Shown piece after piece: positions 4,133-38,032 of a DNA stretch of 40,256 bases (position 1 is its first letter; each line of letters starts with the position of its first letter). The stretch comes from a virus, in the IMG/VR virus record IMGVR_UViG_3300025896_000060, positions 1 to 40,256 of that record, one strand, 5' to 3'. Under the pieces are notes generated by a model that was given only the letters and a program-made list of their open reading frames with translations, had not been told where the DNA came from and searched no databases. The position numbers were made by a program, and so were the translations under genes.

Positions 4133-5623
4133 TTATGTTCTAATTCTGTATTGGAATATGAACCAGTGGTCTTCATTGGCTGTACCTCCCGAGGGGAAGC
4201 GCATAAGTGCCCTGTCACTTGTTGTATTGGGTGTGACCGTACCTGCCACCGTGTTCGCCCGGCTATTTGAAACACCGGATACATCCGTGCCATCAATAAG
4301 GTTTGAGGCGATTGGTAACGGAATTTCTACCTGGGTATCAGTGCCACTACCTGAGGTAGGGTCCACATCAATTCGGCCTGATACAGTAACAATATCACCA
4401 TTGCGTTGGTAGATGCACGGGTATGCTGTACTAGCAGCTACGTTTGTACCATTCACCAGGGTAGGTGTGTACACTCCGCCATCTAGGCTTAGCATAGCTC
4501 TAATGTTAGCAGCACTAATCCATGCAGGAACAGCGCCATTTCCAGTATTATTACCAAGCAAGCTATTAGCAGATGCGTTGACAATCTTCGCTAGGGTGAC
4601 TTGAGCATCACCAATCTTAGCTGTGACCACCTGGCCATCTGCTAGGACAATTTTCAGTGTGGCCCATGTTACCGCTGTGGAACCTAATGTACCACCAGCA
4701 TTAACCGTACAAATAAATGTATAGTCAGCCCACGTACTTCCTTCTTCCACCGCCACAACAGCAGAGACCAATTCTCCCCATGAGTTCATGTCATCTCTAC
4801 GAGTGAGGGGCTGGCCCGTGCCATTGAATGTCCACACCCCATTCTCAGCGGGTGCAGATTGATTTTGAAGAAGGATACCATCTCCAGATGTGAGTGACTT
4901 GCCATCCAGTGATGATGGGGCACTACTAATATCTACGTTTGATACTGAGGATGCAACCACAGGGTTCTTCCATCGAATACCAGAAGCAGCAGCTTCAGCG
5001 GCAGCTTGGGCATTCTCAGCAGCCGTTTGTGCTGCTTCAGCCGCATCAGCAGCATCTTCGGCTAATCCCTGGGCAGCTTCGGCAGCAGCTTGGGCATCTT
5101 CAGCACCATCTTCAGCAGCTTCGGCTAATCCCTGGGCAACTTCAGCAGCAGCTTGTGCAGCTTCAGCAGCGATAACAGCAGCCACAGTACCAATAGCTAC
5201 AGTATCAACGTAGTTCTTAGTGACAGCATCCGATGGGAGCACTGGTTCTCCCAGGTCCTCAATACGCAAGTCACCAGCGGTAGCTTGGCCTGTATCTGCG
5301 AAGTCAATAGGAGAGTTCTCATCAATTTCTTGGATGAGGTTTAGGAACTGACTGTTGGAGAGATTGTAGTCAGCAGCCTTTGATGTAGAAGCATCTTGGA
5401 ATGTAACTTCCAGTGCATCTCTATCAGTCACACGTTTAATGAGACCGGCAGCACCATTAGGAGCAGCTTCATCAAGTTCAATCTGAGAGGAAGTAATGAA
5501 TGAAAAGTCAACTTCTTCACCATCCACAAAGACTTTAATATCATCTTCCTCTAAGTAAGAGAATGAGATGTTGAAGGGTCCGGTTGTACCGTTCCCTGTA
5601 AATGTGTTAAAACTTAGGGGCAT
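4133..5623 (-). CDS. Tail fibre protein (T7 gp17-like N-terminus)
   Basis: A 496-residue receptor-binding fibre. Residues 1-145 match the T7 fibre N-terminal domain that docks on the tail: the opening TFTGNGTTGPFNISF, then YLEEDDIKVFVDG. Residues about 146-213 form an Ala-rich shaft of 21-residue repeats (AQAAAEAAQGLAEDA type), encoded by 63-bp direct repeats. After this comes a beta-rich region and a C-terminal tip domain (about 375-496) with an Asn/Thr/Gly-rich composition. The tip shows no obvious depolymerase active site. It is shorter than T7 gp17 (553). Fibre tips evolve quickly, so host range cannot be read from it. Confidence 0.92.
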   Translation of the reverse strand: MPLSFNTFTGNGTTGPFNISFSYLEEDDIKVFVDGEEVDFSFITSSQIELDEAAPNGAAGLIKRVTDRDALEVTFQDASTSKAADYNLSNSQFLNLIQEIDENSPIDFADTGQATAGDLRIEDLGEPVLPSDAVTKNYVDTVAIGTVAAVIAAEAAQAAAEVAQGLAEAAEDGAEDAQAAAEAAQGLAEDAADAAEAAQTAAENAQAAAEAAASGIRWKNPVVASSVSNVDISSAPSSLDGKSLTSGDGILLQNQSAPAENGVWTFNGTGQPLTRRDDMNSWGELVSAVVAVEEGSTWADYTFICTVNAGGTLGSTAVTWATLKIVLADGQVVTAKIGDAQVTLAKIVNASANSLLGNNTGNGAVPAWISAANIRAMLSLDGGVYTPTLVNGTNVAASTAYPCIYQRNGDIVTVSGRIDVDPTSGSGTDTQVEIPLPIASNLIDGTDVSGVSNSRANTVAGTVTPNTTSDRALMRFPSGGTANEDHWFIFQYRIRT

Positions 5624-20168: not shown

Positions 20169-20188
20169 TTCTATGGTGGTCTAATTGA
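20169..20188 (-). promoter_or_regulatory. Phage RNA polymerase promoter for the virion operon
   Basis: Contains CAATTAGACCACCATAGAA on the minus strand, identical over 19 bases to the copies at 1500 and 30735. It lies after a terminator-like hairpin and before the connector-to-terminase block. The downstream leader has CCTGGGATAAACATAGGAT, nearly the same as in the 1.5 kb copy. Confidence 0.85.
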
Positions 20189-20262: not shown

Positions 20263-20817
20263 TTATCCCCACTGCTCCGCCATAGCCTGAGCTATACCAG
20301 TGAAAGTGCGGCTCCGTTCCTTCCATCGGTCAGGTCCAGGAGGCATCATGTGAACACGCGCCTCTCTACCCTCAACGATGTCGGTAGGAATTAGTTTTGG
20401 TAGGCCCTTAAGCCACAAGCAAGTAGCCTTCGTTTCCCCATGCCCGAATTGCCAAGGTTGGATAATCTGGGTGGGTTTGCGAATGCGACTACTGATTATG
20501 CTAATGGGGTTCTCTAAAGCAATCTTCGGGATGTCACAGTCGAGAAGCATTTGAACGAAGTCCAACGCTTCGGCCTGTTCTTGTTTCTTATCCTTGAACC
20601 ATCTAGCCCCTGATACCGCGAGGTGTGTGCAGGGTGGATGGAAGATTGCCAAATCGTAGGCCCCCCCCCGTTTGTTCAGAAGGTCCCTTAGGTCACCTTG
20701 ATAGTGAGGCCCAGGGACTTCTGTTGGGAGAAGGTCGCATGATATAGCATCATGTCCGGCCTTAATAAAAGCATCTCTTACTACGCCGGAGTATTCACAT
20801 CCAACTAGAACTTTCAT
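20263..20817 (-). CDS. Cytosine-5 methyltransferase-like protein without target domain
   Basis: 184 residues with the Rossmann-type core of C5 cytosine methyltransferases. The SAM-binding opening is VLVGCEYSGVVRDAF; a PPC motif at about 61-63 carries the cysteine nucleophile position, and ENP at about 102-104 matches the ENV motif. No separate target-recognition domain is visible, and the protein is about half the length of a typical enzyme. Possible roles are modification of phage DNA against restriction or a non-DNA substrate; activity is inferred. The start overlaps the preceding gene by four bases (ATGA). Confidence 0.72.
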   Translation of the reverse strand: MKVLVGCEYSGVVRDAFIKAGHDAISCDLLPTEVPGPHYQGDLRDLLNKRGGAYDLAIFHPPCTHLAVSGARWFKDKKQEQAEALDFVQMLLDCDIPKIALENPISIISSRIRKPTQIIQPWQFGHGETKATCLWLKGLPKLIPTDIVEGREARVHMMPPGPDRWKERSRTFTGIAQAMAEQWG

Positions 20818-22154: not shown

Positions 22155-22912
22155 TCGATTACTTTCTTATTCTTTAGGTCATAGTCTTGGGCATGGCAGA
22201 TACGGGCCACTCGTGCATTCACAAGAGCGTCCACTTCACCTAAGCCAGCCTTACGGAATGCTTCCACTACTACAGCCCACCAAGTAGCAACCTGAACATC
22301 TAGCTCTACACCATACGAGATGGTTGCAGCGTCTAGGAGTCGGGTGGCAGCTACAGGACCAACACCAGGGCAACCAGGGTAACCATCTGTGCTATCACCC
22401 ACGAGGGTTTGGTACATATGGTTATAGGCTGCACGGCCAGGATTGATTTGGTAGAGCTTACCTTGCCGATACACCTGACTGGGAATGGTGAAGAGGTCTT
22501 TATCACCAGAGACAATTACCTTGTCCCCTTTAACCAGAGTCGGGTGGGTGGCCAAGATGCCGAGAATATCATCAGCTTCTAGGCCAGGACGGATATAAGT
22601 ATTGTAGTTCGCTGTGATGTACTCACGGAGAGCTGGGAGGACCAGCGGCTTGCGGGTCTCCTTACGGTTACTCTTGTAAGTTGGCATCACTGTTTTGCGC
22701 CAGTTGCTTTCAGCGCATGTGAGAGCAATGACAACTTCAGCAGCGTCAAGCTCTTCTAGTATCTTCTGCATATCCTCATTGAACATACGGGTGGCTTCAT
22801 CAGCGTCCGCATGGAGGGTCCAGATGTTGCCCCAGTTAGTTGGGCGTTCCACCGAGGTAGCAGCTTTGTAGGCGTAGATGTCTCCATCAATGAGGAGAAT
22901 TTTCTTCGGCAT
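21983..22912 (-). CDS. 5'-3' exonuclease (T7 gp6-like)
   Basis: 309 residues against 300 in T7 gp6. It degrades host DNA and removes primers. FLAP/PIN-type acidic motifs are visible: LIDGDIYAYKA at the N-terminus, GLEADDILG at about 114-122 and VIVSGDKDLF at about 132-141, followed by GCPGVGPVAATRLL, a helix-hairpin-helix. The last 60 residues are a Pro/Gln/Lys-rich tail that overlaps the kinase frame. The start shares a base with the stop of the HslV-like gene. Confidence 0.94.
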   Translation of the reverse strand: MPKKILLIDGDIYAYKAATSVERPTNWGNIWTLHADADEATRMFNEDMQKILEELDAAEVVIALTCAESNWRKTVMPTYKSNRKETRKPLVLPALREYITANYNTYIRPGLEADDILGILATHPTLVKGDKVIVSGDKDLFTIPSQVYRQGKLYQINPGRAAYNHMYQTLVGDSTDGYPGCPGVGPVAATRLLDAATISYGVELDVQVATWWAVVVEAFRKAGLGEVDALVNARVARICHAQDYDLKNKKVIEWNPPQVAPVLPPQEEPQPQANPAQEQKTSSVSAKANTSASQRKLKQPSKGKKTSRK

Positions 22913-23415
22913 TACTTCTTCGCTTTCTTCTTGGTGGGTTTCTTTTTCTTGGACGGAGAAGCATTGACCACGATGTTATCAACTCCCATGCCACAGTAGA
23001 TGTCATGTTCAGATGTAAACAACACAGCCTGACGAGCAGTTTGCCCAAGGGCTAGTGCCGCCAATGCGAAGTTCTCACCACAGCCGAATGCTTGCTTCTT
23101 GCTTGGAAGGTACTCACCTTGAGGGAAGCGGCAATACAGCCACAAGCCATCAAAGCCTGGTTTGGCCACGATAAGGTAAGCCTCAGCTTCACCCTTCATG
23201 CCTTCCAGTTCGCTTCGGTTATTCGGGAAGTCTTCGTTCTTTGCCCCGTTGCGATACCACTCCATAAGAGCGAAGGAAGTATCACCAGCACCACATACGG
23301 CCATAGCCTCACCGTTCTTTAAACGATGGACCTTGATGCACTCTGTTCTGGTGTTACCCATTGTGAGTTGGCGGTCAGCAGCAAGGTTCTTACCGTCCCA
23401 TGCAATTACTGTCAT
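22912..23415 (-). CDS. HslV/proteasome beta-like Ntn hydrolase
   Basis: 167 residues. It opens MTVIAWDGKNLAADRQ, which matches the N-terminus of HslV and proteasome beta subunits, where Thr2 becomes the catalytic N-terminal nucleophile after methionine removal. The downstream GCGENFALAALALG corresponds to the family's Gly-rich helix start. The C-terminus is a very basic tail (SKKKKPTKKKAKK) not found in HslV. No HslU-like ATPase is encoded nearby. Related proteins occur in several phage groups; substrate and role are unknown. It lies between a small protein gene and the exonuclease, overlapping both slightly. Confidence 0.8.
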   Translation of the reverse strand: MTVIAWDGKNLAADRQLTMGNTRTECIKVHRLKNGEAMAVCGAGDTSFALMEWYRNGAKNEDFPNNRSELEGMKGEAEAYLIVAKPGFDGLWLYCRFPQGEYLPSKKQAFGCGENFALAALALGQTARQAVLFTSEHDIYCGMGVDNIVVNASPSKKKKPTKKKAKK

Positions 23416-28866: not shown

Positions 28867-29316
28867 TTAGATGGAGTTCTTCTCCACCCAGGGCTTCACA
28901 TCAAAACAGGGACACGCTTTAGCTACATTCGGGAAGTCCCGATGACCTTGGATTACCGCTTGAGGGTATTTCACTTTAAGGTCTCTAAGGAGAGCCGCTA
29001 GCGTGGCGTATTGTTCTTTTGTGAAGTTGTCTATTGGCGTTTTAGCATCAGGCTTTAAGCCTCCGGCCATGCAGATACCTACACTGACCGAGTTAAAGCC
29101 CTCAACGTGAGCGCCAATCTCGTCCCATGAACGGCAGGGGAAACCCTTCTCTTGGGTCTCTAGCGTACCGTCACGGCGGATTACAGCATGGTAGCCGCAC
29201 TTAGCGAACCCGCGCTTGCGGTGCTCAGTGTCAACCCATACAGAACCGAAATCTTGTTTGGCAGTAGTGGCCATGCAATGCACGGCGATATACTTAGTGT
29301 CTTTTCTTTTATTCAT
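28867..29316 (-). CDS. N-acetylmuramoyl-L-alanine amidase (T7 lysozyme, gp3.5-like)
   Basis: 149 residues against 151 in T7. It cleaves the amide bond between muramic acid and the stem peptide. Zinc ligands fit at His13 (AVHCMAT), His125 (GHRDF) and Cys135 (KACPCFD), with the catalytic-site Tyr42 (GYHAV) and Lys133. T7 lysozyme also binds and inhibits the phage RNA polymerase; the same may hold here because the polymerase is T7-type. There is no signal peptide, so a holin is needed. The ribosome binding site is weak (AAAGATAG). Confidence 0.95.
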   Translation of the reverse strand: MNKRKDTKYIAVHCMATTAKQDFGSVWVDTEHRKRGFAKCGYHAVIRRDGTLETQEKGFPCRSWDEIGAHVEGFNSVSVGICMAGGLKPDAKTPIDNFTKEQYATLAALLRDLKVKYPQAVIQGHRDFPNVAKACPCFDVKPWVEKNSI

Positions 29317-29331
29317 AACTATCTTTAAAAA

Positions 29332-29407
29332 TGGTTGCGGGAGTCAGACTCGAACTGACGACCTTCAGGGTATGAGCCTGACGAGCTACCAACTGCTCCA
29401 TCCCGCA
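29332..29407 (-). tRNA. tRNA-Met(CAT), initiator-like
   Basis: A 76-base cloverleaf with encoded CCA. Acceptor TGCGGGA/TCCCGCA, D-stem GAGC/GCTC, anticodon stem TCAGG/CCTGA with loop CTCATAC, variable AGGTC and T-stem GTCAG/CTGAC with loop TTCGAGT all pair fully. The D-stem A11-U24 pair and the AGGTC variable region are those of bacterial initiator tRNA. However, positions 1-72 form a weak T-A pair instead of a mismatch, and the three anticodon-stem GC pairs are reduced to A-T, G-C, G-C. It may initiate, elongate or be read as a lysidine tRNA-Ile. It lies between lysozyme and endonuclease I. Confidence 0.95.
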
Positions 29408-29425
29408 ACGAAAACAATGCCCCAT

Positions 29426-29451
29426 CTACACCTTTACCCAGGGAAGTGTAG
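29426..29451 (-). other. Hairpin just upstream of the tRNA
   Basis: CTACAC/GTGTAG inverted repeat with a 14-base loop region containing CCCTGGGTAAA, ending 19 bases before the mature tRNA 5' end on the minus strand. It has no T-run. A role in tRNA excision or mRNA processing is plausible. The 29408-29518 gap otherwise shows no supported gene. Confidence 0.45.
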
Positions 29452-29518
29452 GTTCCCGTGTTACTTCACGTGTTAGTTCATAGCGTCAAGCGCCAGAGGA
29501 GTTCTAGGGGCTACCATC

Positions 29519-29929
29519 TTACCTACACCAATCGGCTGGGATACGTTTATCGGCATACAAGAAACCATTCTTGATACACCAGTCAGCGTAGGTAGTATTA
29601 CTTTTCTTTGATATTCTTGATTTAGAATTGGAGAATACAAACCGTATGTCCAACTCTGGGTGCTGTTGCTTAATGAGCAAATGCTTTTGTCGGTCGGCTG
29701 TTACGAAGCGGCCCTTGGTTTCAACGATGATACCATTCTTCAGTGTGAAGTCTGGAGTGTACCGTGATTGCTTGGCTGGCTTCATAAACTTGATGGTGAG
29801 AGTTTCATATTCGTAGGGGATACCCTTCGCTTCTAACTCAGCACCAACTGCCTCTTCGAGACCTGAACGAAAACCGTACTTCAAACCCACAGCATCAGCC
29901 GTGGATTTTTTCTTAGAAGTCTTCGGCAT
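29519..29929 (-). CDS. Endonuclease I, Holliday junction resolvase (T7 gp3-like)
   Basis: 136 residues from the ATG at 29929 (T7 gp3 149). The longer frame to 30031 is excluded because its first part lies in the ssDNA-binding gene. Catalytic residues align with T7 at a constant +5 offset: Glu25 (SGLEE), Asp60 (YTPDF), Glu70 and Lys72 (VETKGR). It resolves branched DNA and helps degrade host DNA before packaging. It overlaps the preceding gene by 17 bases, with AAGG four bases before the ATG. Confidence 0.95.
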   Translation of the reverse strand: MPKTSKKKSTADAVGLKYGFRSGLEEAVGAELEAKGIPYEYETLTIKFMKPAKQSRYTPDFTLKNGIIVETKGRFVTADRQKHLLIKQQHPELDIRFVFSNSKSRISKKSNTTYADWCIKNGFLYADKRIPADWCR

Positions 29930-30563
29930 CGTCCTTGTCATCTCCCTTGGCATCACCGAAGTCATCCTTAGCAGATGCAGTGTAGCCTTCTTCTTCCTCG
30001 AAGCCGAAGCCCTTGGCATTTTGCGTACCAAATTCTTTCAGCTCAACAACCTGGACAGCTTCTAGCGCCAGCTTGATACCAGCACCAACCGAAGTTGATG
30101 TGGCGTATGGGATGATGGTGTAGGAGATCTTACCGATTGAACCACCACCAACATTAACGTCAGTGAGTGGTGTGCCAACAGCGTCGAATACTGGAACCTT
30201 GCGTTCCCACTTCTTGCCATCCTTCTTGCTTACGCCGGATGCCTTTGCGGTGAACTTAATTGCTAGTTCGCCAGTTTCGTTACCATCGTCATCCTCCAAC
30301 ATGCGGTAGGGGTGGTTCTTGATTTCCCACTTCTTCGCTTCCGCTGGAGTCTTTGCTTTGCTCTTAACATCAGCCAGGCAAGCTGCTTCAGCTTCCTTGA
30401 GTTTCGTTAAGATAGTCTGGGCTTCCTTGCTGTCTGCTTGGAGCACCAGTTCATTGGAATACTCGCCTTCAGGTTTGAACTTCGTATCCGGTGTACCCAG
30501 GCGTGGGTAGCGGAAGATGCCCTTAGGTGAAGTAAAGCGTTCCTTCTTGATATTATTCGTCAT
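29913..30563 (-). CDS. Single-stranded DNA-binding protein (T7 gp2.5-like)
   Basis: 216 residues against 232 in T7 gp2.5. An OB-type core (FRYPRLGTPDTKF, then GIKLALEAVQVVEL) is followed by a strongly acidic tail ending DDKDDAEDF, with the C-terminal aromatic residue that T7 gp2.5 needs to contact polymerase and helicase. It coats ssDNA in replication and annealing. The start overlaps the preceding small gene by 11 bases. The first member of the replication block is thus a 48-residue protein and the second is this one. Confidence 0.93.
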   Translation of the reverse strand: MTNNIKKERFTSPKGIFRYPRLGTPDTKFKPEGEYSNELVLQADSKEAQTILTKLKEAEAACLADVKSKAKTPAEAKKWEIKNHPYRMLEDDDGNETGELAIKFTAKASGVSKKDGKKWERKVPVFDAVGTPLTDVNVGGGSIGKISYTIIPYATSTSVGAGIKLALEAVQVVELKEFGTQNAKGFGFEEEEGYTASAKDDFGDAKGDDKDDAEDF

Positions 30564-30734: not shown

Positions 30735-30753
30735 TTCTATGGTGGTCTAATTG
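30735..30753 (-). promoter_or_regulatory. Phage RNA polymerase promoter for the replication block
   Basis: CAATTAGACCACCATAGAA on the minus strand, identical over 19 bases to the copies at 20169-20188 and 1500-1519. It is the first copy downstream of the RNA polymerase gene, as expected where transcription switches from host to phage polymerase. Confidence 0.88.
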
Positions 30754-30788
30754 CCCCCACCAGTGAGTTAGTTGCACTAGTGGAAGGG
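30754..30788 (-). other. Strong hairpin between RNA polymerase and promoter
   Basis: CCACTAGTG/CACTGGTGG, nine pairs including one G-U, with outer CCC/GGG and a nine-base loop, directly after the polymerase stop codon. No T-run follows, so RNase III-type processing or pausing is more likely than intrinsic termination. Confidence 0.55.
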
Positions 30789-30789
30789 T

Positions 30790-33324
30790 TTAGGCAAAGG
30801 CATAGTAGCTGTCTTTGACTAGGTTAAGGTCCAGGGTCCCCATAGAGGGGGCTGGGGGTATCTTATCGTGCTCTGTGGCTGGCAATGCAGCTAGGGCCTC
30901 ATCCCTGAAGTCCTCGAAGACATTGCACGTTGAGTACATCTCTACGAAGGCTTCTCGTACAGTGGAGAACAGAGCATCTGTATCTGCTGCACACGTACCA
31001 AAGCTATCATGCACCAGTGCCATGCTGTTGATGCCAGCTTCCTTAGCCCGTACAACGGTGAGCATCAGGTGACTAGCATCCATGGAGTGAATGAAGTTAG
31101 GTGAGATACCATTCGCTTGGCGTACCTTATCCAGCTCAGTGGTTGCCTGAGCGTACCCCAAGCGCATATCCAGATTACCAGCGAGGGTAGTACGGATGCG
31201 GTGGAGCTTCATCTGCCTCACAGCTTGCAACACCATGAAGTTAGTTGGAGTGTGCCACACAACGGGAAGGTTGTGATTAGCCAGCACACGAGCAACTGTC
31301 TTCAACCAGTTCATCCCTTCAGCCGCCTTAACGACAACTTGAGGGAGAGCTTGGGAGATTGCATTGGCCATGAAGGATGCAGCCTCAGTCCCATCATTCT
31401 CAAACGGGAAGTCATTAGGCTTCTCCATCTTAGCGGGACGCATGGTGTCCTCCATGAGCTGCTCACGGAAGCCATAGTTAGCTGAGCCATACGGATACGT
31501 CATCACAGCTCGTTTGACACGCTTGCGGGTGATACCGAACTTCAACCATTGCTGAGCTACTTCTTCAGTGGCCCTTGCCTGGGTGTATTCAATGCACTTG
31601 TCAGCAACCTTCTGGTAGATGTCCTGAGGCTTATCTGAGGGGACCAGGTTGACAGCAGCGCCACCAACTTCATCTCTCAGTGCCATGGAGTAGTTCTGAA
31701 TGCCTGAGCACGAACCATCCAGAGCGATAGGGATATGAGAAACAAAGCTCACGCCTTGCTCCATGTACCCTGCCCACTCAAAGCAGAAGGCTAGGAACTG
31801 CCAGGGCTTGTCGATGGTCACATCCTCCACAGCTTTTGTTGTGGGGTTTATCCAGCCACCTTCAACCCACCCACGATTAGCAAATGGGTCTTCAGCGATT
31901 GCTTTGATTTGTGCTTCGTTAGCATCCACCCAGTCCACACGGTCTTGGAATGAAACCTTGTCCACTCCAGCCATGTTGGCACCTTGGATAGCCAGCCACT
32001 TCACGCCATCTTCACCAATGGGTTTCCCCTCAGCGAAGTGCATAAGTGACTTCATAAGGTCAGGGCCTTGAGGGTTGAACGAAGGCACTGCATAAACTCT
32101 GCCTCTGAAGTCCAACTGGTACGGAAAGTAAATTCGCTCGAAGGCACCATACTTCTCAGCGGTTGAGATGCACTGTTGTATCTGGAGGCGTTTGGATTGG
32201 TTCTGGACATTGAAAGCGTAAGTGTCCCGTGCATCCTTCTTCCACTTGAAGTGTCTATCTTTATCGTAGCCTGGGAGCGAGGTGTCAAAACACACATGGT
32301 TTTTACGCTCGGCTTGCACCATGCTTCCGCAAGATGGACACAGAGGTAATGGAACGTTCTCCCTGCTAGGGAGTGGCGACCAAGTTGCTGACTGTTCCCA
32401 TAGAGTTCTAGCAACGTCTAGAGTCCTTTGGTTGATAGCCCAGGGAACATTCTGCATAGTGTTAATGGCATCGTAAACGATGGGCATGTCATGGTTCTTC
32501 AGCTCCTCTAGGTATCCGCTAAGGTGGGTTTTCACCAGCGTCAGGCGTTTCACATAACGGGTCAAGTAGCCACCACCACGGGGGCCAGTCCAGGGGAGAG
32601 GTTCTACAATCATAGGCTCATACTTAGGCTGCATCAGAGCAATGAAGCTGTTACGTGCATTGACCCAATCTGTGACTTCACTCTTAGGGTGGATGTACAG
32701 CTCAGTGTTGTGCTTACCGTTCTGCTGCTTCACGATGTCAAACATGCCAGTCTTATCAACAATGGCATCAATGACACGGGAGCCTACAGAGACCTTCTCA
32801 GTGAGGGACCAGCTCTTCCACTCCACTCCACTTTCCTGAGACAGGAACTTCACGAGGTAGGCTTTGCGGCTGTAAGCCACGCGAGTCTTAGCCTTGCGAA
32901 CAAGATGGAAATAGAGGTTGGAGTTCTCAGCTTCAAGCGCACGGAAGCGACACTCATCTTCGATGTAGTTGCCAATCTCCAGGGCCAGCTTAGGAAGCGT
33001 CTGTCCAAACTGAAGAGCGTTGAGGGTGCAGCGTAGGCCAAGGAAGGCTGATACGTTGGCGGGTAGTTGGTCCAGCAACTTCATGTGCGTGGCTCTGCGC
33101 CCAGCGCCACCCTTCTTCGCCTTATCAATCATCTCTTGGATGCCTTCACCAACGCTCTTAACGTGCTTGTTGATTAGCTCCTGAGCTGGGGCCGTGTTGG
33201 ACTCTTGGCCCTTTTGTCTTGCCTTGACCACAGCACCTTCGTACTGCTTCTGACCCATTACGGTCATCTGCTTCTCAAGCTCAATCTGCTGAGCGTACAA
33301 ATCGGTTTCGTCTGGTGTATCCAT
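30790..33324 (-). CDS. Single-subunit DNA-directed RNA polymerase (T7 gp1-like)
   Basis: 844 residues from the ATG at 33324, five bases after GTGAGG; the ATG nine codons upstream has no ribosome binding site. T7 RNAP has 883. The palm motif is PIALDGSCSGIQNYS (catalytic Asp), the O-helix region KRAVMTYPYGSANYGFREQ (Lys and Tyr that select NTPs) and the second Asp motif MALVHDSFGTCAAD. The C-terminus is YYAFA, like T7's FAFA foot. It would transcribe from the CAATTAGACCACCATAGAA promoters and be restrained by lysozyme. Confidence 0.98.
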   Translation of the reverse strand: MDTPDETDLYAQQIELEKQMTVMGQKQYEGAVVKARQKGQESNTAPAQELINKHVKSVGEGIQEMIDKAKKGGAGRRATHMKLLDQLPANVSAFLGLRCTLNALQFGQTLPKLALEIGNYIEDECRFRALEAENSNLYFHLVRKAKTRVAYSRKAYLVKFLSQESGVEWKSWSLTEKVSVGSRVIDAIVDKTGMFDIVKQQNGKHNTELYIHPKSEVTDWVNARNSFIALMQPKYEPMIVEPLPWTGPRGGGYLTRYVKRLTLVKTHLSGYLEELKNHDMPIVYDAINTMQNVPWAINQRTLDVARTLWEQSATWSPLPSRENVPLPLCPSCGSMVQAERKNHVCFDTSLPGYDKDRHFKWKKDARDTYAFNVQNQSKRLQIQQCISTAEKYGAFERIYFPYQLDFRGRVYAVPSFNPQGPDLMKSLMHFAEGKPIGEDGVKWLAIQGANMAGVDKVSFQDRVDWVDANEAQIKAIAEDPFANRGWVEGGWINPTTKAVEDVTIDKPWQFLAFCFEWAGYMEQGVSFVSHIPIALDGSCSGIQNYSMALRDEVGGAAVNLVPSDKPQDIYQKVADKCIEYTQARATEEVAQQWLKFGITRKRVKRAVMTYPYGSANYGFREQLMEDTMRPAKMEKPNDFPFENDGTEAASFMANAISQALPQVVVKAAEGMNWLKTVARVLANHNLPVVWHTPTNFMVLQAVRQMKLHRIRTTLAGNLDMRLGYAQATTELDKVRQANGISPNFIHSMDASHLMLTVVRAKEAGINSMALVHDSFGTCAADTDALFSTVREAFVEMYSTCNVFEDFRDEALAALPATEHDKIPPAPSMGTLDLNLVKDSYYAFA

Positions 33325-33380
33325 GGGGGCCTCACGGTGGAATGGTTGCATCAGTGGATAGGTGTAGGCAAATAAAAAGG

Positions 33381-33593
33381 TTAGCCAGTAATGGACTTAG
33401 GTAAGATAGGCTTCAGCTCTACATTGTAGAAGGTGTTGCGAGTACGCACAGCCTCTACCATAGTTGTGCGGATGGTAGTGCCATCTCGCCAGCGTACATC
33501 TCCGTAAACTTCACCTACCAAACATCCGGTGATGTCGATGTAGGCATTCTTGATGGTTGAGGGCAATCCATCGTGGCCCATGGCTCTCTGCAT
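33381..33593 (-). CDS. Small protein between integrase and RNA polymerase
   Basis: 70 residues, beta-rich (YIDITGCLVGEVYGDVRWRDG), with no TM. GGAGG lies seven bases upstream and the start overlaps the integrase stop (TAATG), so it is translated with the integrase. An excisionase-like or recombination directionality role could be imagined from position, but the fold does not resemble a known excisionase. Confidence 0.75.
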   Translation of the reverse strand: MQRAMGHDGLPSTIKNAYIDITGCLVGEVYGDVRWRDGTTIRTTMVEAVRTRNTFYNVELKPILPKSITG

Positions 33594-34597
33594 TATGCGG
33601 CCTCCAATAAGTCACGAGCCAGGATTAGCTCAGTGGGTACTAGGTGACTATAACGCATAGTCTCCTCGATTCGTCTATGCCCCAACCACTTCTGGACAAG
33701 GGCAATGTTCTTGGTCTCCTTCAGGAGCCTCGTAGCGCAATCATGGCGACAAGCATGGGGGACAAACTCATCGTCCTCCTGTAAGCCCAGGGCTACCTTT
33801 ATCTCATTCCATCTATCCTCAATGCGATTGCTCGTGGCGAACTCAAAGTTGCCCTGGCGAGAGAACGCAGCGAAAGCTCTATTGGTGAGGGGGATGGAGC
33901 GCGGTGTGTCGGACTTAGTATCCCATAAATGGAGAAGTGGTGCATCATCAGTGAGAGTGATGTCACTGGCTTTCGCCTTACGAACCTCTGAACATCTCGC
34001 GCCTGTGTCCAGTAGGACCACAAAGAAGTCAGCCCATTGCTGACGGTTGGTATTGTTATAAAATCCCGCAATGGTTCCTCTCTCTGTGTCTGTGAAGAAA
34101 CGGGTACGGGTAGTCCTGACACGGAGGAACTCAATGTCAGGGCGCTTGGCTATGATGTCCTTACGCTCCGCATAGCGGAACATCTTGGATAGCATAGCGA
34201 GGCGCTTATTGATTGTAGCTGGGGCGAAGCCTTGAGCCTGTTGGGTAACAGTGAAGTGCTCCACATCAGCGGTAGTAATGTCAGCAGCTAGGCGCTCTTT
34301 CCCGAAGTGGGAGAGAATGACCTTAGCCACTGACATAACACCAGCCCTATGCTCGGCCTTCTGCCAGTAACGGCTGAAGCAAGCATCGAAGAGAGTGGAT
34401 AGGCTGTTTCCGTTGCCACTATGTAAGCGGTCAAAGGCCCTCTTCTGTACTGCGGGTTCTCGGCCAGCTAGAAGGTCAGCTTTAATCTGAGCTTCCATGG
34501 CTAGTGCAGATGTACGATCAGGGGCTTGCGCTCTAACCCGTTTGCCCTTGTGTTGCACATCTACCTGATAACCATTTGAACGAGGCTTCACAGTCAT
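33593..34597 (-). CDS. int: Tyrosine recombinase / phage integrase
   Basis: 334 residues from the ATG at 34597, which has AGGTGG five bases upstream; a GTG three codons earlier is the alternative. Arm-type N-terminal domain (about 1-55), core-binding domain (about 65-155) and catalytic domain with all key residues: Arg201 (GARCSEV), Lys228, His281-x-x-Arg284 (HACRH), His307 (LGHRR) and Tyr316 (MRYSH). The enzyme appears intact. It would insert and excise the genome at an att site. Its position just upstream of RNA polymerase matches temperate-type cyanophage and pelagiphage podoviruses. Confidence 0.96.
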   Translation of the reverse strand: MTVKPRSNGYQVDVQHKGKRVRAQAPDRTSALAMEAQIKADLLAGREPAVQKRAFDRLHSGNGNSLSTLFDACFSRYWQKAEHRAGVMSVAKVILSHFGKERLAADITTADVEHFTVTQQAQGFAPATINKRLAMLSKMFRYAERKDIIAKRPDIEFLRVRTTRTRFFTDTERGTIAGFYNNTNRQQWADFFVVLLDTGARCSEVRKAKASDITLTDDAPLLHLWDTKSDTPRSIPLTNRAFAAFSRQGNFEFATSNRIEDRWNEIKVALGLQEDDEFVPHACRHDCATRLLKETKNIALVQKWLGHRRIEETMRYSHLVPTELILARDLLEAA

Positions 34598-34598
34598 A

Positions 34599-34940
34599 TT
34601 AACCACCTATCATGTGGGTTACTTTTTCATACAACTGAACTCCACGAGGAGTCAGTGTGTGTACCTTGCGGCGCAGTTCCATGGGGTCTGGGACACCCTC
34701 TATTAGGGCAAATCCCTTTTCCTTATGGCGGTTGAGTTTAGAGAATACAGCTACGTTCCTACTGGCCGAGCTTTCTGCCTGGTCAGTCATAGCGGCTATC
34801 TGAACTAGGGATACCCCTGGGTTCAACGCTACTGTAAGAAATGTAACTACCTGTTGCACAGGCATCTCCGGGTCCAACCTTCTAAACTCCTCCAAGCAAC
34901 GCAACAGTTTACGAGCTTGGTTTGTTTTTATACTGCTCAT
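34599..34940 (-). CDS. Winged-helix DNA-binding regulator (MarR-like)
   Basis: 113 residues. A winged helix-turn-helix is visible: VSLVQIAAMTDQAESSASRN as the HTH (about 44-63) and KGFALIEGVPDPMELRRKV as the wing (about 75-93), ending LTPRGVQLYEKV. The ribosome binding site AGGGAGG is very good. The integrase ATG follows its stop by one base. It probably controls the lysogeny operon, perhaps its own promoter at 34969-34999. It might also replace a CI-type repressor, but no such test is possible here. Confidence 0.88.
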   Translation of the reverse strand: MSSIKTNQARKLLRCLEEFRRLDPEMPVQQVVTFLTVALNPGVSLVQIAAMTDQAESSASRNVAVFSKLNRHKEKGFALIEGVPDPMELRRKVHTLTPRGVQLYEKVTHMIGG

Positions 34941-34968
34941 GTCCTACCTCCCTTGGTTAAAACCATTC

Positions 34969-34999
34969 CACATATACATTATTTCTATGTGTGACGCAA
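34969..34999 (-). promoter_or_regulatory. Host-type promoter with inverted repeat before the regulator
   Basis: On the minus strand, TTGCGT and TATATG are separated by exactly 17 bases, a fair sigma-70 promoter. An inverted repeat CACATA/TATGTG (34969-34991) covers the -10 region, a natural operator for the winged-helix protein encoded just downstream. This supports independent expression of regulator and integrase in a lysogen. Confidence 0.5.
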
Positions 35000-35016
35000 G
35001 GGAAAAGTTATAAGGG

Positions 35017-35205
35017 CTAATTATTCAGGTACTTAGGCAGGGTGTACATGATGTCTAAGCCACCAAACCAGATGTGGCGTGTGGGCTTCACAGAACCCAA
35101 GTTGTAGGTCTCGAAGAAAGGTGTATAGCCACCTGAAGACTCATACTCCATTACAAGTTCACCTAGGTATTTGTTGCTAAACAGCGTGATATTAAAGTAC
35201 TTCAT
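35017..35205 (-). CDS. Small aromatic-rich hypothetical protein
   Basis: 62 residues, rich in Tyr, Phe and Gly, ending MYTLPKYLNN. GGGGAG lies about eight bases upstream. It is the last early gene before the lysogeny promoter. No membrane helix or known motif. I do not recognise it. The 92-base gap upstream (35206-35297) shows no gene. Confidence 0.7.
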   Translation of the reverse strand: MKYFNITLFSNKYLGELVMEYESSGGYTPFFETYNLGSVKPTRHIWFGGLDIMYTLPKYLNN

Positions 35206-35297
35206 GGCAGTTACTCCCCTGGGGTCGTGGTTATGGTGGATGGAAAGGTCTCATGGTTTGTTTATGTCGGCAAGGGTTATTTTTATCCTACTATTAC

Positions 35298-35375
35298 TTA
35301 GGAAAGAAAATATCCTACTACGGTAAGCACAGCGATAAACACTAGGAAACCATAGTCGTGATCTTGATTTCCCAT
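35298..35375 (-). CDS. Possible 25-residue single-TM peptide
   Basis: It starts one base after the stop of the preceding membrane-protein gene, whose last codons supply GGAGG five bases upstream. It reads MGNQDHDYG, followed by a hydrophobic helix (FLVFIAVLTVVGYFLS). Strand, spacing and ribosome binding site are good, length is minimal. Function unknown. Confidence 0.5.
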   Translation of the reverse strand: MGNQDHDYGFLVFIAVLTVVGYFLS

Positions 35376-35376
35376 A

Positions 35377-35946
35377 TCAACCTCCGTTAGTAAGTGTAAT
35401 GCAGATGGTGAATACCAAGGCTGTGAAGCCGAAGAGGTGCTCACCCCACATGACGGTCTTCTGCTCGTCCACTTTGCGACCAATGAGGTAACAGAGGGCG
35501 TGAGCTACGCCGAAGTTAAGGGCGTATATCGGGAGGTAGTAGAAGGAACCTGTGGCCCAGCATAGAACAGCAGAGAGAATACCTCCCCGCAAGATGCCTA
35601 TGTAAACCATGGCTAGTGTACAACGCTCAGTCTCATCACGGCTAGGCAGGATTGGACCTAACCAATCTCTGTCATTGGTCTCTGTGTTGGGGTTGAATCC
35701 ACCAACAGCAAAGTACCTACCATGGGAGAACCACTTCCACGAGAATGCCGCAATGACTGAAGCCAGAGCAGCTATGTGATTGTAGTCTGAGTTCACCAAC
35801 ACTGCTACACCCACAACAAGCGACCAGGAGAGCCAAGCACCCGTAGTTCCTAACTCTTTCCCGAAGACTTTCTTTCCATCTCTGCGATACAGCCAACCGC
35901 TGAGCAGGATGAGAAGGATATTTATGATTGCGAGTAAAGGTGTCAT
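35377..35946 (-). CDS. Multi-pass membrane protein
   Basis: 189 residues with about five or six hydrophobic segments (near 2-19, 37-51, 57-72, 110-130, 132-150, 168-186) and a hydrophilic loop rich in Asn, Asp and Arg (about 80-105). No transport or enzyme motif is visible. The start is an ATGA overlap with the preceding gene. As part of an early membrane-protein cluster it may act in superinfection exclusion or host takeover, which is inference. Confidence 0.78.
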   Translation of the reverse strand: MTPLLAIINILLILLSGWLYRRDGKKVFGKELGTTGAWLSWSLVVGVAVLVNSDYNHIAALASVIAAFSWKWFSHGRYFAVGGFNPNTETNDRDWLGPILPSRDETERCTLAMVYIGILRGGILSAVLCWATGSFYYLPIYALNFGVAHALCYLIGRKVDEQKTVMWGEHLFGFTALVFTICITLTNGG

Positions 35947-36246: not shown

Positions 36247-36447
36247 TTACTTGTCGGCCAACACCAGTATTACGCAAAGCAATACGATGAAGAACACAGC
36301 AAGGGCGAAGCCAATCCACAGTGGGCTAAGAACCCATAGCCACGACCATGCAATGTAGCCTGTTAGTTTCAGGCCGATGAAGAGCAAGGTCAGAAGGCCA
36401 GCGAAGCTAGGACCAGCATAGACGTTTGTTTTATTTTGGGTTGCCAT
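36247..36447 (-). CDS. Transmembrane Fragile-X-F-type protein
   Basis: 66 residues, two hydrophobic helices with the signature FIGLKLTGYIAWSWLWVLSP followed by LWIGFAL. This matches the small phage/bacterial proteins annotated as TMEM185/Fragile-X-F type, which are membrane proteins of unknown role. It overlaps the RNA-ligase-like gene by 17 bases and has AGGAG six bases before its ATG. Confidence 0.85.
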   Translation of the reverse strand: MATQNKTNVYAGPSFAGLLTLLFIGLKLTGYIAWSWLWVLSPLWIGFALAVFFIVLLCVILVLADK

Positions 36448-36988
36448 TGGCTACTCCTAACGATTTAGGCTTCTCATCATCCTTCAAGGTTTTCTTGTAG
36501 AGCTGATTAGATGCCGTGTGGAAGATGACTATGCCTTCAGGGTCCATGAACCCAGGGTTGGCATAACTACCGAGGTCCTTCAGCTCATTCATGATGCCAC
36601 CCAGAATTTCATCTGATAGCGGACCACGATACAGCTCAGGGACAACCCAGCAGCATTCGGGGATTGGGTGTTCCAGCCAGCGCGTAGTGTTGAATAGTGA
36701 GAACTTCTTCTCATCCATTCCATACCCACGTTGGATGCCCTTACCCCACCACTCGCCAAAGTGTTGGCCTGGGCCTAACAGTAGCAAGTCTTTCTCGTTG
36801 GCTTGGACCCACTTAGCGAAACCGTAGTTGTCGTCTTCAGGGGTAATCCAGCGAGTACGAGAACCAGCGAAAACTTTACCGTCATCTGTGATAAAGATTT
36901 GTGCGTTGGTCCCATCTAGTTTCTCCGTGACGATTACATCACGAGAGTATCTGGCAATCTTGGGGAATGCCTTGAACTCTGGTTGCAT
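36431..36988 (-). CDS. Compact RNA ligase-like nucleotidyltransferase
   Basis: 185 residues containing the covalent nucleotidyltransferase core: motif I EKLDGTN with nucleophile Lys23, GSRTRW at about 42-47, FGEWWGKG at about 77-84 (motif IIIa region), KFSLFN near 95-100, motif IV EGIVIF at 151-156 and motif V YKKTL at 164-168. The KxDGTN form fits the Rnl2-like RNA ligases better than T7 DNA ligase. No OB-fold or Rnl2 C-terminal domain is present. It could seal nicked RNA (for example cleaved tRNA) or substitute for the missing gene 1.3 DNA ligase. GGAGG lies five bases upstream. Confidence 0.85.
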   Translation of the reverse strand: MQPEFKAFPKIARYSRDVIVTEKLDGTNAQIFITDDGKVFAGSRTRWITPEDDNYGFAKWVQANEKDLLLLGPGQHFGEWWGKGIQRGYGMDEKKFSLFNTTRWLEHPIPECCWVVPELYRGPLSDEILGGIMNELKDLGSYANPGFMDPEGIVIFHTASNQLYKKTLKDDEKPKSLGVANGNPK

Positions 36989-37073
36989 TTGGCCTCCAGT
37001 GAACCAGCCAACACCAGCCTAGGAATAGGAGGATGAAGGTGGCGATTGATAAGTTGATTGCTGTGTCTGCCAT
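36939..37073 (-). CDS. Possible 44-residue single-TM peptide
   Basis: Its ATG overlaps the stop of the nucleotidyltransferase gene (TGATG), and its last 17 codons overlap the ligase-like gene in another frame. One hydrophobic helix (NLSIATFILLFLGWCWLV) sits near the N-terminus. It could anchor or couple expression of the two RNA enzymes. The ribosome binding site is weak, so reinitiation would be needed. Confidence 0.5.
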   Translation of the reverse strand: MADTAINLSIATFILLFLGWCWLVHWRPNATRVQGIPQDCQILS

Positions 37074-38032
37074 CAGAACATCCTGTCGATGACTTCAACC
37101 AGATAAACCATGTCTATCTTGGTAGAGTCCTTCGCTTTCAATTCTGAGATGAGCTGACTGAAGTAAGCCACATCAACACCTGTGAGCTGCTCTTGGAGAA
37201 CCTTGGGGTCCGACAAGTCTAGCGATTGGCATTGGGTAACCATCTTCAATATCTGACCAGCGTTGATGCTGTACCCACGCTTCACAAACTTGCGAATGCG
37301 AATGAGGGAGCAGATGGGGTAACGTGAACCAATATACTTCAGCTCACGAGAGAGCAGGGCTTCTAAGGCTTGAGGCCGTAGGACCAGCTCGTTACCTTGA
37401 TAGGTCCAGTAGCTTGTGCAATGAACAAAATCAAAGTTCTCATGGATGACATCAGGCTCACCCGTAAAGCGCAGGATGATTTGAACATCGTTGCTCAGGG
37501 TGATTGCGTTACTGGACACAAACAGAGGGCGGTAAGGCTTACCCTTGACCTTCTTGGTCTTGGTAGCTTCTCGCTCTTCATCGTGTGTCTCTTGGATGGT
37601 GCCAGGGTCATCCATGACATCACCAACATAAGCACCAGCTTCTTCAGCAGGGCGACCCTCGAAGTAACGGTACTCTTCTTCAGCCCCAGCTTCACTGGCG
37701 ATACCAGCGGACTTGACGTACACCTGAATGCGGTCATCCACACGGCGAACTTCAATCTTGCATGAGATACCAGATTCCTTCTGAGGCTGGAAGCGACCAA
37801 CGTAGTAACGGGCTACAGCTTCAGCGGTCTCAGGTGTTCTGAAGTAAATGTCGAAGTCGTTGACCTCTTCACCCAACAGCATGGAAGCGATAGCACCACC
37901 AGTTACGATGACATCTCGCTTCACAAGGTCTTGAACAGCAGTGTCTTCGATGGATGCAATCCACTCTTCAACCTTGCGCTTCAAGATGCCCTTGATTTGT
38001 GGAGCACGAAGCCCCTTTTGAACATCAGTCAT
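37073..38032 (-). CDS. Nucleotidyltransferase-fold protein
   Basis: 319 residues. GGAIASMLLG (about 45-54) followed by DFDIYF (Asp59, Asp61) is the glycine-serine plus double-aspartate signature of the polymerase-beta nucleotidyltransferase fold seen in CCA-adding enzymes and MenT/AbiEii-type toxins. A third acidic site may be ENFDFVHC (about 199-206). The C-terminal third is helical, with SLIRIRKFVKRGYSIN like the basic RNA-binding part of tRNA nucleotidyltransferases. Substrate unknown. AAGGAG precedes the start, which overlaps the previous gene by eight bases. Confidence 0.8.
   Translation of the reverse strand: MTDVQKGLRAPQIKGILKRKVEEWIASIEDTAVQDLVKRDVIVTGGAIASMLLGEEVNDFDIYFRTPETAEAVARYYVGRFQPQKESGISCKIEVRRVDDRIQVYVKSAGIASEAGAEEEYRYFEGRPAEEAGAYVGDVMDDPGTIQETHDEEREATKTKKVKGKPYRPLFVSSNAITLSNDVQIILRFTGEPDVIHENFDFVHCTSYWTYQGNELVLRPQALEALLSRELKYIGSRYPICSLIRIRKFVKRGYSINAGQILKMVTQCQSLDLSDPKVLQEQLTGVDVAYFSQLISELKAKDSTKIDMVYLVEVIDRMF

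Follow-up and report, generated by a model that had tools for sequence, protein, structure and literature searches.

Genome context of the tRNA gene

The window, that is, the whole stretch of DNA analyzed here, is an IMG/VR virus record of 40,256 bases with 49% G+C. Its minus strand carries a T7-type gene set (single-subunit RNA polymerase, ssDNA-binding protein, endonuclease I, amidase, primase-helicase, DNA polymerase, portal, capsid, internal virion protein, and terminase), and the genome is that of a T7-like phage with an integrase. The closest RNA polymerases, at about 40% identity, are those of Bordetella, Pseudomonas, and Limnohabitans phages. A tRNA gene lies between the endonuclease I and amidase genes, and the features at and around it are as follows:

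28867 to 29316, minus strand: amidase (T7 gp3.5-like), start codon at 29316; PHROG_822, E 7.3e-54
29332 to 29407, minus strand: tRNA-Met(CAU) of initiator type, 76 nt, CCA encoded; ARAGORN and Rfam RF00005; tRNA position p corresponds to 29408-p
29367 to 29379, minus strand: tRNA positions 29 to 41, with A29-U41, G30-C40, and G31-C39 around C32 U33 C34 A35 U36 A37 C38; read from the sequence
29370, minus strand: C38 in the anticodon loop, on the 5' side of the 38|39 bond; read from the sequence, sampled bacterial initiators having A38
29408 to 29518, minus strand: untranslated leader from the endonuclease I stop to the tRNA, with predicted hairpins; fold z -2.35 for 29300-29520, tRNA included
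29519 to 30031, minus strand: endonuclease I (T7 gp3-like), the gene preceding the tRNA, stop at 29519; PHROG_945, E 3.7e-49
30735 to 30754, minus strand: candidate phage RNA polymerase promoter (G/T)CAATTAGACCACCATAGAA, upstream of ssDNA-binding protein, endonuclease I, tRNA, and amidase
30790 to 33351, minus strand: T7-type single-subunit RNA polymerase; PHROG_414, E 7.2e-267; 42.8% identity to Bordetella phage BB8
33593 to 34606, minus strand: tyrosine integrase, 4.2 kb from the tRNA; PHROG_1, E 8.6e-44

The amidase ATG lies 15 nt downstream of the CCA end of the tRNA. In integrase-bearing T7-like relatives, the junction between endonuclease I and amidase measures 16-38 nt, and there is none in Pseudomonas phage LUZ100, whose copies of the two genes overlap; therefore, the tRNA together with its leader of about 110 nt is an insertion in this phage. 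Some other relatives have about 200 nt at this junction, free of any tRNA. None of 86 T7-like loci carries a tRNA between these two genes, and the few tRNAs found in them sit elsewhere, beside the integrase gene or before the RNA polymerase gene. No viral contig searched matched the first 49 nt of the tRNA exactly.

The 20-nt sequence TCAATTAGACCACCATAGAA occurs in three minus-strand copies (1500-1519, 20169-20188, and 30735-30754) with at most one mismatch, compared with zero matches expected in shuffles. Judged from their form and placing, these copies are probably phage RNA polymerase promoters, and the position of the copy at 30735-30754 suggests that it would drive the genes for ssDNA-binding protein, endonuclease I, the tRNA, and amidase. 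Elsewhere in the window, an HslV-family peptidase (PHROG) lies in the replication region (22912-23415, minus strand), a DNA methyltransferase is encoded at 20263-20817, and the tail fibre gene (4133-5623) contains tandem repeats at 4985-5201.

The tRNA is of initiator type

The tRNA reads TGCGGGATGGAGCAGTTGGTAGCTCGTCAGGCTCATACCCTGAAGGTCGTCAGTTCGAGTCTGACTCCCGCAACCA on the minus strand, a strand that a preliminary description of this DNA had not stated. The only tRNA that ARAGORN recognized in the window is this tRNA-Met(cat) at minus-strand positions 29332-29407, and its score with Rfam tRNA (RF00005), 66.8 bits (E 1.5e-12; cut-off 29), excludes a chance match. Both results bear out the earlier count of a single tRNA. 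The A11-U24 pair, the variable loop AGGTC, U1-A72, and the stem A29-U41/G30-C40/G31-C39 were all correctly read in that description. Three departures from the bacterial consensus had been overlooked: C38 in place of A38, a D-loop that is one base short (UU before G18G19, where the consensus has three bases), and G57/G59 in the T-loop.

The tRNA combines a CAU anticodon and A73 with a 1-72 position that is not strongly paired (U1-A72, a weak pair), A11-U24 in the D stem, and G30-C40 and G31-C39 next to a Watson-Crick 29-41 pair (A29-U41). It does not have the textbook anticodon stem of three G-C pairs, but these are not defining because the chromosomal initiators of many bacteria do without them. 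In an alignment to other tRNAs, its nearest relatives are initiators, with scores of up to 69 of 76, so the initiator-type core proposed earlier holds; elongator or lysidine tRNA-Ile types lie far away, although these distances are only indicative because the collection had been chosen by initiator patterns. Identity as elongator tRNA-Met or lysidine tRNA-Ile was considered and rejected, given A11-U24 and nearest relatives that are initiators. Going by these sequence features, the tRNA in all likelihood functions as an initiator.

U1-A72 and A29-U41 had been taken for altered identity positions, a claim that does not survive comparison with bacterial genomes. A pattern search found initiators with both U1 and A29 in at least 117 stretches of bacterial genomes, which among the matches listed fall mostly in Verrucomicrobiota, Kiritimatiellota, and Lentisphaerota, and also in Maricaulis, Parvularculaceae, Jannaschia, Commensalibacter, Rickettsia, and others. 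Moreover, A29 is present in nearly all initiators listed from 289 alphaproteobacterial genomes, and both variants are common in phage initiators. As judged from this distribution, A29-U41 and U1-A72 are normal initiator variants.

Initiator tRNAs in other phages

When viral contigs were scanned for initiators whose D-loop lacks one or two bases, at least 120 stretches were returned, and 100 distinct sequences from these were analyzed. Because the pattern fixed G30, G31, A11, U24, and the D-loop ends, no claim is made on those positions. Among these matches listed, 1-72 is Watson-Crick in 18 of the 100 and G-C in one, with C-A (20) and then U-A (16) as its commonest states. The neighboring acceptor pairs are overall Watson-Crick in 82-97 of the 100 (93, 82, 96, and 96 at 2-71, 3-70, 4-69, and 5-68, respectively), and position 29-41 is G-C in 53, A-U in 33, and U-A in 14. 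With 1-72 weak while the rest of the acceptor stem is paired, phage initiators appear to have been selected as initiators.

Among the matches listed, 103 of the 118 phage-initiator loci are separated from the end of the retrieved piece by more than 300 nt, whereas 85 of the 119 viral-contig matches with host-like initiators lie within 300 nt of such an end, the pattern expected if these were proviruses integrated in the host gene and tRNA-fMet commonly served as such a site. In Stenotrophomonas phage vB_Sm_QDWS359 and Caulobacter phage CcrSC, the tRNA was annotated as tRNA-fMet by the depositors. A large group of viral contigs (L324-L345 and L360-L473) combines a short D-loop and a weak 1-72 with joint changes at positions 32 and 38. 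Extra bases before the T-stem are predicted in the initiator-type tRNAs of three contigs, L324, L329, and L335 (GTCGTCATAAACGGTTCG), and a comparable insert occurs in that of L431 (GTCGTCTCAAACGGTTCG). Initiators with a short D-loop are thus common in phages, where they keep a weak 1-72 and vary at anticodon-loop positions that are invariant in sampled hosts. Phages repeatedly retain an initiator tRNA of their own, and this would stand even if the nuclease escape considered below were wrong.

C38 and the anticodon loop

Position 38 is A in 115 of 115 bacterial initiators of one sampled set and in all but one of the alphaproteobacterial matches listed. The sole exception is on contig 1 of genome G092. 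At 37,109 bases, this contig is as long as a viral contig that shares the tRNA core, and in all probability it is phage DNA that was binned with a bacterium. A pattern search of 349 Pseudomonadota genomes returned zero non-A38 matches; the pattern requires GGTAGCTCGT, so that groups with another D-arm fall outside its coverage, and the result counts genomes, not initiators. Hence, in the sequences sampled, C38 is absent from hosts, if the G092 contig is taken as phage, and is a minority state in phages.

Among the matches listed, 16 of the 100 short-D-loop phage initiators have a base other than A at position 38. A viral scan with C32 fixed yielded C38 or U38 in 22 stretches, several of which are near-duplicates of one another, and a further viral scan returned 12 stretches with position 37 changed. 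Positions 32 and 38 co-vary in the phage initiators listed (Fisher 2.7e-13), with 83 cases of C32-A38, 14 of U32 with a non-A38 base, and 4 mixed. The window tRNA has C32-C38, so that position 38 alone is changed. Since 84 of the 100 phage initiators listed keep A38, C38 is not a general requirement.

A passage in PMC4105405, citing Winther and Gerdes (2011), states that the VapC toxins of Shigella flexneri and Salmonella enterica cut tRNA-fMet at the single A38|C39 bond. As far as that passage goes, the phage tRNA thus carries a base change at a known host-nuclease cut site, C38 lying by the 38|39 bond of enteric VapC.

RNA ligase and nucleotidyltransferase genes

Two adjoining genes elsewhere in the window encode enzymes that could act on tRNA:

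36431 to 36988, minus strand: RNA ligase (ATP-dependent nucleotidyltransferase) with motifs EKLDGTN, GEWWGKGIQ, EGIVIF, and YKKT; Pfam and PHROG
37073 to 38032, minus strand: pol-beta nucleotidyltransferase of CCA-adding/poly(A) polymerase fold with motif GGAIASMLLGEEVNDFDIY; PHROG_4400/1614, AlphaFold, Foldseek, and VIA

The ligase scores over the cut-off against Pfam RNA_ligase (E 2.7e-11), matches PHROG_548 (E 5.3e-32), and weakly matches the T4 Rnl2 structure; the assignment is based on sequence families and motifs, the AlphaFold model made without an alignment having a pLDDT of 32. Its closest phage relatives are 56-58% identical, several of them annotated as RNA ligase, and in Caulobacter phage CcrSC such a ligase and a tRNA-fMet are both present. 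The ligase gene lies in the early region, and of the 86 T7-like relatives only one has it (L002, 8094-8588, 51%).

In the nucleotidyltransferase, the TGG...D.D signature is kept in 25 of 25 aligned relatives. Its AlphaFold model (pLDDT 72.9) has poly(A) polymerases and CCA-adding enzymes as top Foldseek matches (E 2.3e-4), and VIA gave Z 10.9 over 170 residues at 4.5 A. An insert at about residues 108-163 is poorly predicted. The family occupies at least 73 viral loci, mostly without a tRNA or ligase nearby.

A ligase, a nucleotidyltransferase, and a tRNA as a conserved module were considered and rejected, with a ligase near the nucleotidyltransferase in 1 of the 73 loci (within the retrieved flanks) and either enzyme at 0 of the 118 phage-initiator loci (among the matches listed). 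No kinase or phosphatase was recognized among the scanned proteins of this phage. By sequence and model, the ligase and the adjacent nucleotidyltransferase suggest tRNA repair or replacement, and a functional link between them and the tRNA in this phage is suggestive.

Possible roles of the phage initiator

We tentatively favor the reading that the tRNA is a phage-resident initiator which supplements or replaces the host initiator, the latter possibly being under nuclease attack, while the ligase and nucleotidyltransferase repair other tRNAs; we put its chances just short of even. Its transcription, as part of the middle operon, probably starts at the phage-RNA-polymerase-type promoter at 30735-30754. 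Host RNase P would then release the tRNA from the polycistronic transcript, and 3' trimming would end at the encoded CCA. Methionyl-tRNA synthetase (MetRS) would charge it via the CAU anticodon and A73, transformylase would formylate it via the weak U1-A72, G2-C71, C3-G70, G4-C69, and A11-U24, and G30-C40/G31-C39 would give it entry to the ribosomal P site. It could thus supplement or replace the host initiator during infection. With C38, the base just 5' of the enteric VapC cut (38|39) is altered, and for this reason the phage copy may survive a nuclease that destroys the host initiator. The RNA ligase and the nucleotidyltransferase of CCA-adding fold would repair other damaged tRNAs.

That nuclease evasion is the main reason for the presence of the tRNA is a somewhat more doubtful proposition. 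Possible resistance to host attack had been raised in the preliminary description, and it gains support from features not noted there, namely C38 at the VapC cut, the RNA ligase, and the CCA-adding-like nucleotidyltransferase. The favored reading is consistent with the following observations: (i) the tRNA is intact and complete, and the initiator hallmark is kept in the phage class; (ii) C38 is absent from sampled hosts, and positions 32 and 38 change together in phages; and (iii) genes for an RNA ligase and an enzyme of CCA-adding fold are present. Against it count the A38 retained in most of the phage initiators listed (84 of 100), the changes at 38 that mostly accompany changes at 32 and are equally consistent with retuning of the loop (in the window tRNA, 38 changed alone), and the lack of a conserved module of ligase, nucleotidyltransferase, and tRNA. 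Anticodon-loop changes at nuclease cut sites in phage tRNAs have been proposed as evasion, in a study stating that phages generally avoid tRNA-fMet (PMC10264068). Supplied phage tRNA restores infection against retron-Eco7 and PrrC170; in the case of PrrC170, a defense that acts on T1 and T7, the tRNA is a phage tRNA-Lys (PMC11555353). A broader form of the idea, in which widespread phage initiators change positions 32, 37, and 38 to escape tRNA-fMet nucleases while keeping their function, and act here with the ligase and the CCA-adding-type enzyme, appears rather unlikely to us. Should the C38 copy resist cleavage, it would directly exemplify how a phage shields translation at the initiation step, and it would run counter to the published remark that tRNA-fMet is avoided by phages.

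A serious competitor, which we rate as possible and less probable than the favored reading, is that the tRNA merely raises the initiator pool during a burst of translation, with C38, the short D-loop, and the T-loop changes as tolerated drift. The retained initiator hallmarks, the A38 kept by most phage initiators listed, and the carriage of initiators by very different phages, some annotated as tRNA-fMet, are all in keeping with such a dosage role. However, it gives no reason for the variation at 32, 37, and 38 in phages, positions unchanged in sampled hosts, or for the presence of an RNA ligase.

Since the phage encodes an integrase, the tRNA might instead be its attP, copied from a host tRNA-fMet gene used for integration. 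Initiator genes are common provirus borders, as the 85 near-end matches among the 119 listed indicate. T7-like relatives including LUZ100 have a tRNA-Leu directly beside the integrase (L010, 2583-2669; L012, 2237-2323; L570, 2432-2517). This tRNA-Leu probably serves as an attP by which the host gene is restored, making an attP adjacent to the integrase the likely arrangement in this group. In this phage, however, the tRNA is not next to the integrase gene and lies 4.2 kb away between two middle genes, and a permissive Rfam search found no tRNA-like sequence beside the integrase (33200-35400). Both halves of the gene diverge from sampled host initiators, and no identical 3' half was found in these hosts, which form a limited sample. 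The tRNA is therefore an unlikely attP, and we give this origin a small chance.

We think it very improbable that the tRNA is a neutral leftover or that its fold is there chiefly for cleavage of the middle mRNA directly ahead of the amidase gene: the CCA end does lie 15 nt before the amidase start codon, but such a role would need neither an intact, CCA-encoding tRNA nor the hallmarks of an initiator, and relatives do without the tRNA. Least credible of all is the shift towards elongation raised in the preliminary description, in which U1-A72, a weak pair with no mismatch, and the weaker anticodon stem would let the tRNA act as elongator tRNA-Met, as U1-A72 with A29-U41 is present in bacterial initiators, U1-A72 is the second commonest 1-72 state in the phage initiators listed, and 1-72 stays weak or mismatched in these (Watson-Crick in 18 of 100, against 93 at 2-71).

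Comparison with known systems

The bacterial tRNA-fMet with U1 and A29-U41, found in Verrucomicrobiota, Kiritimatiellota, Lentisphaerota, and some Alphaproteobacteria, shares with the phage tRNA the CAU anticodon, A11-U24, G30-C40/G31-C39, the AGGUC variable loop, U1-A72, and A29-U41. In contrast to it, the phage copy has C38, a D-loop one base shorter, and G57/G59. Initiators borne by the phages vB_Sm_QDWS359, CcrSC, Prevotella Lak-B1, and crAssphage cr60_1 have the same core, a weak or mismatched 1-72, and mostly a short D-loop; they differ from the window tRNA in keeping A38, and none of them comes from a T7-like phage.

The RNA-repair sets of jumbo phages comprise RNA ligases, RlaP/CCA-adding nucleotidyltransferases, and tRNAs (PMC7824862). 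The present phage likewise combines a tRNA with an RNA ligase and a pol-beta nucleotidyltransferase of CCA-adding fold; unlike the jumbo phages, it is T7-like, has a genome of 40 kb, and carries only one tRNA. With the defense-evading phage tRNAs (PMC10264068 and PMC11555353), the window tRNA has in common a change at a nuclease cut site and the potential to replace a cleaved host tRNA. Those are other tRNAs, whereas here it is the initiator that would be protected, a resistance proposed by analogy.
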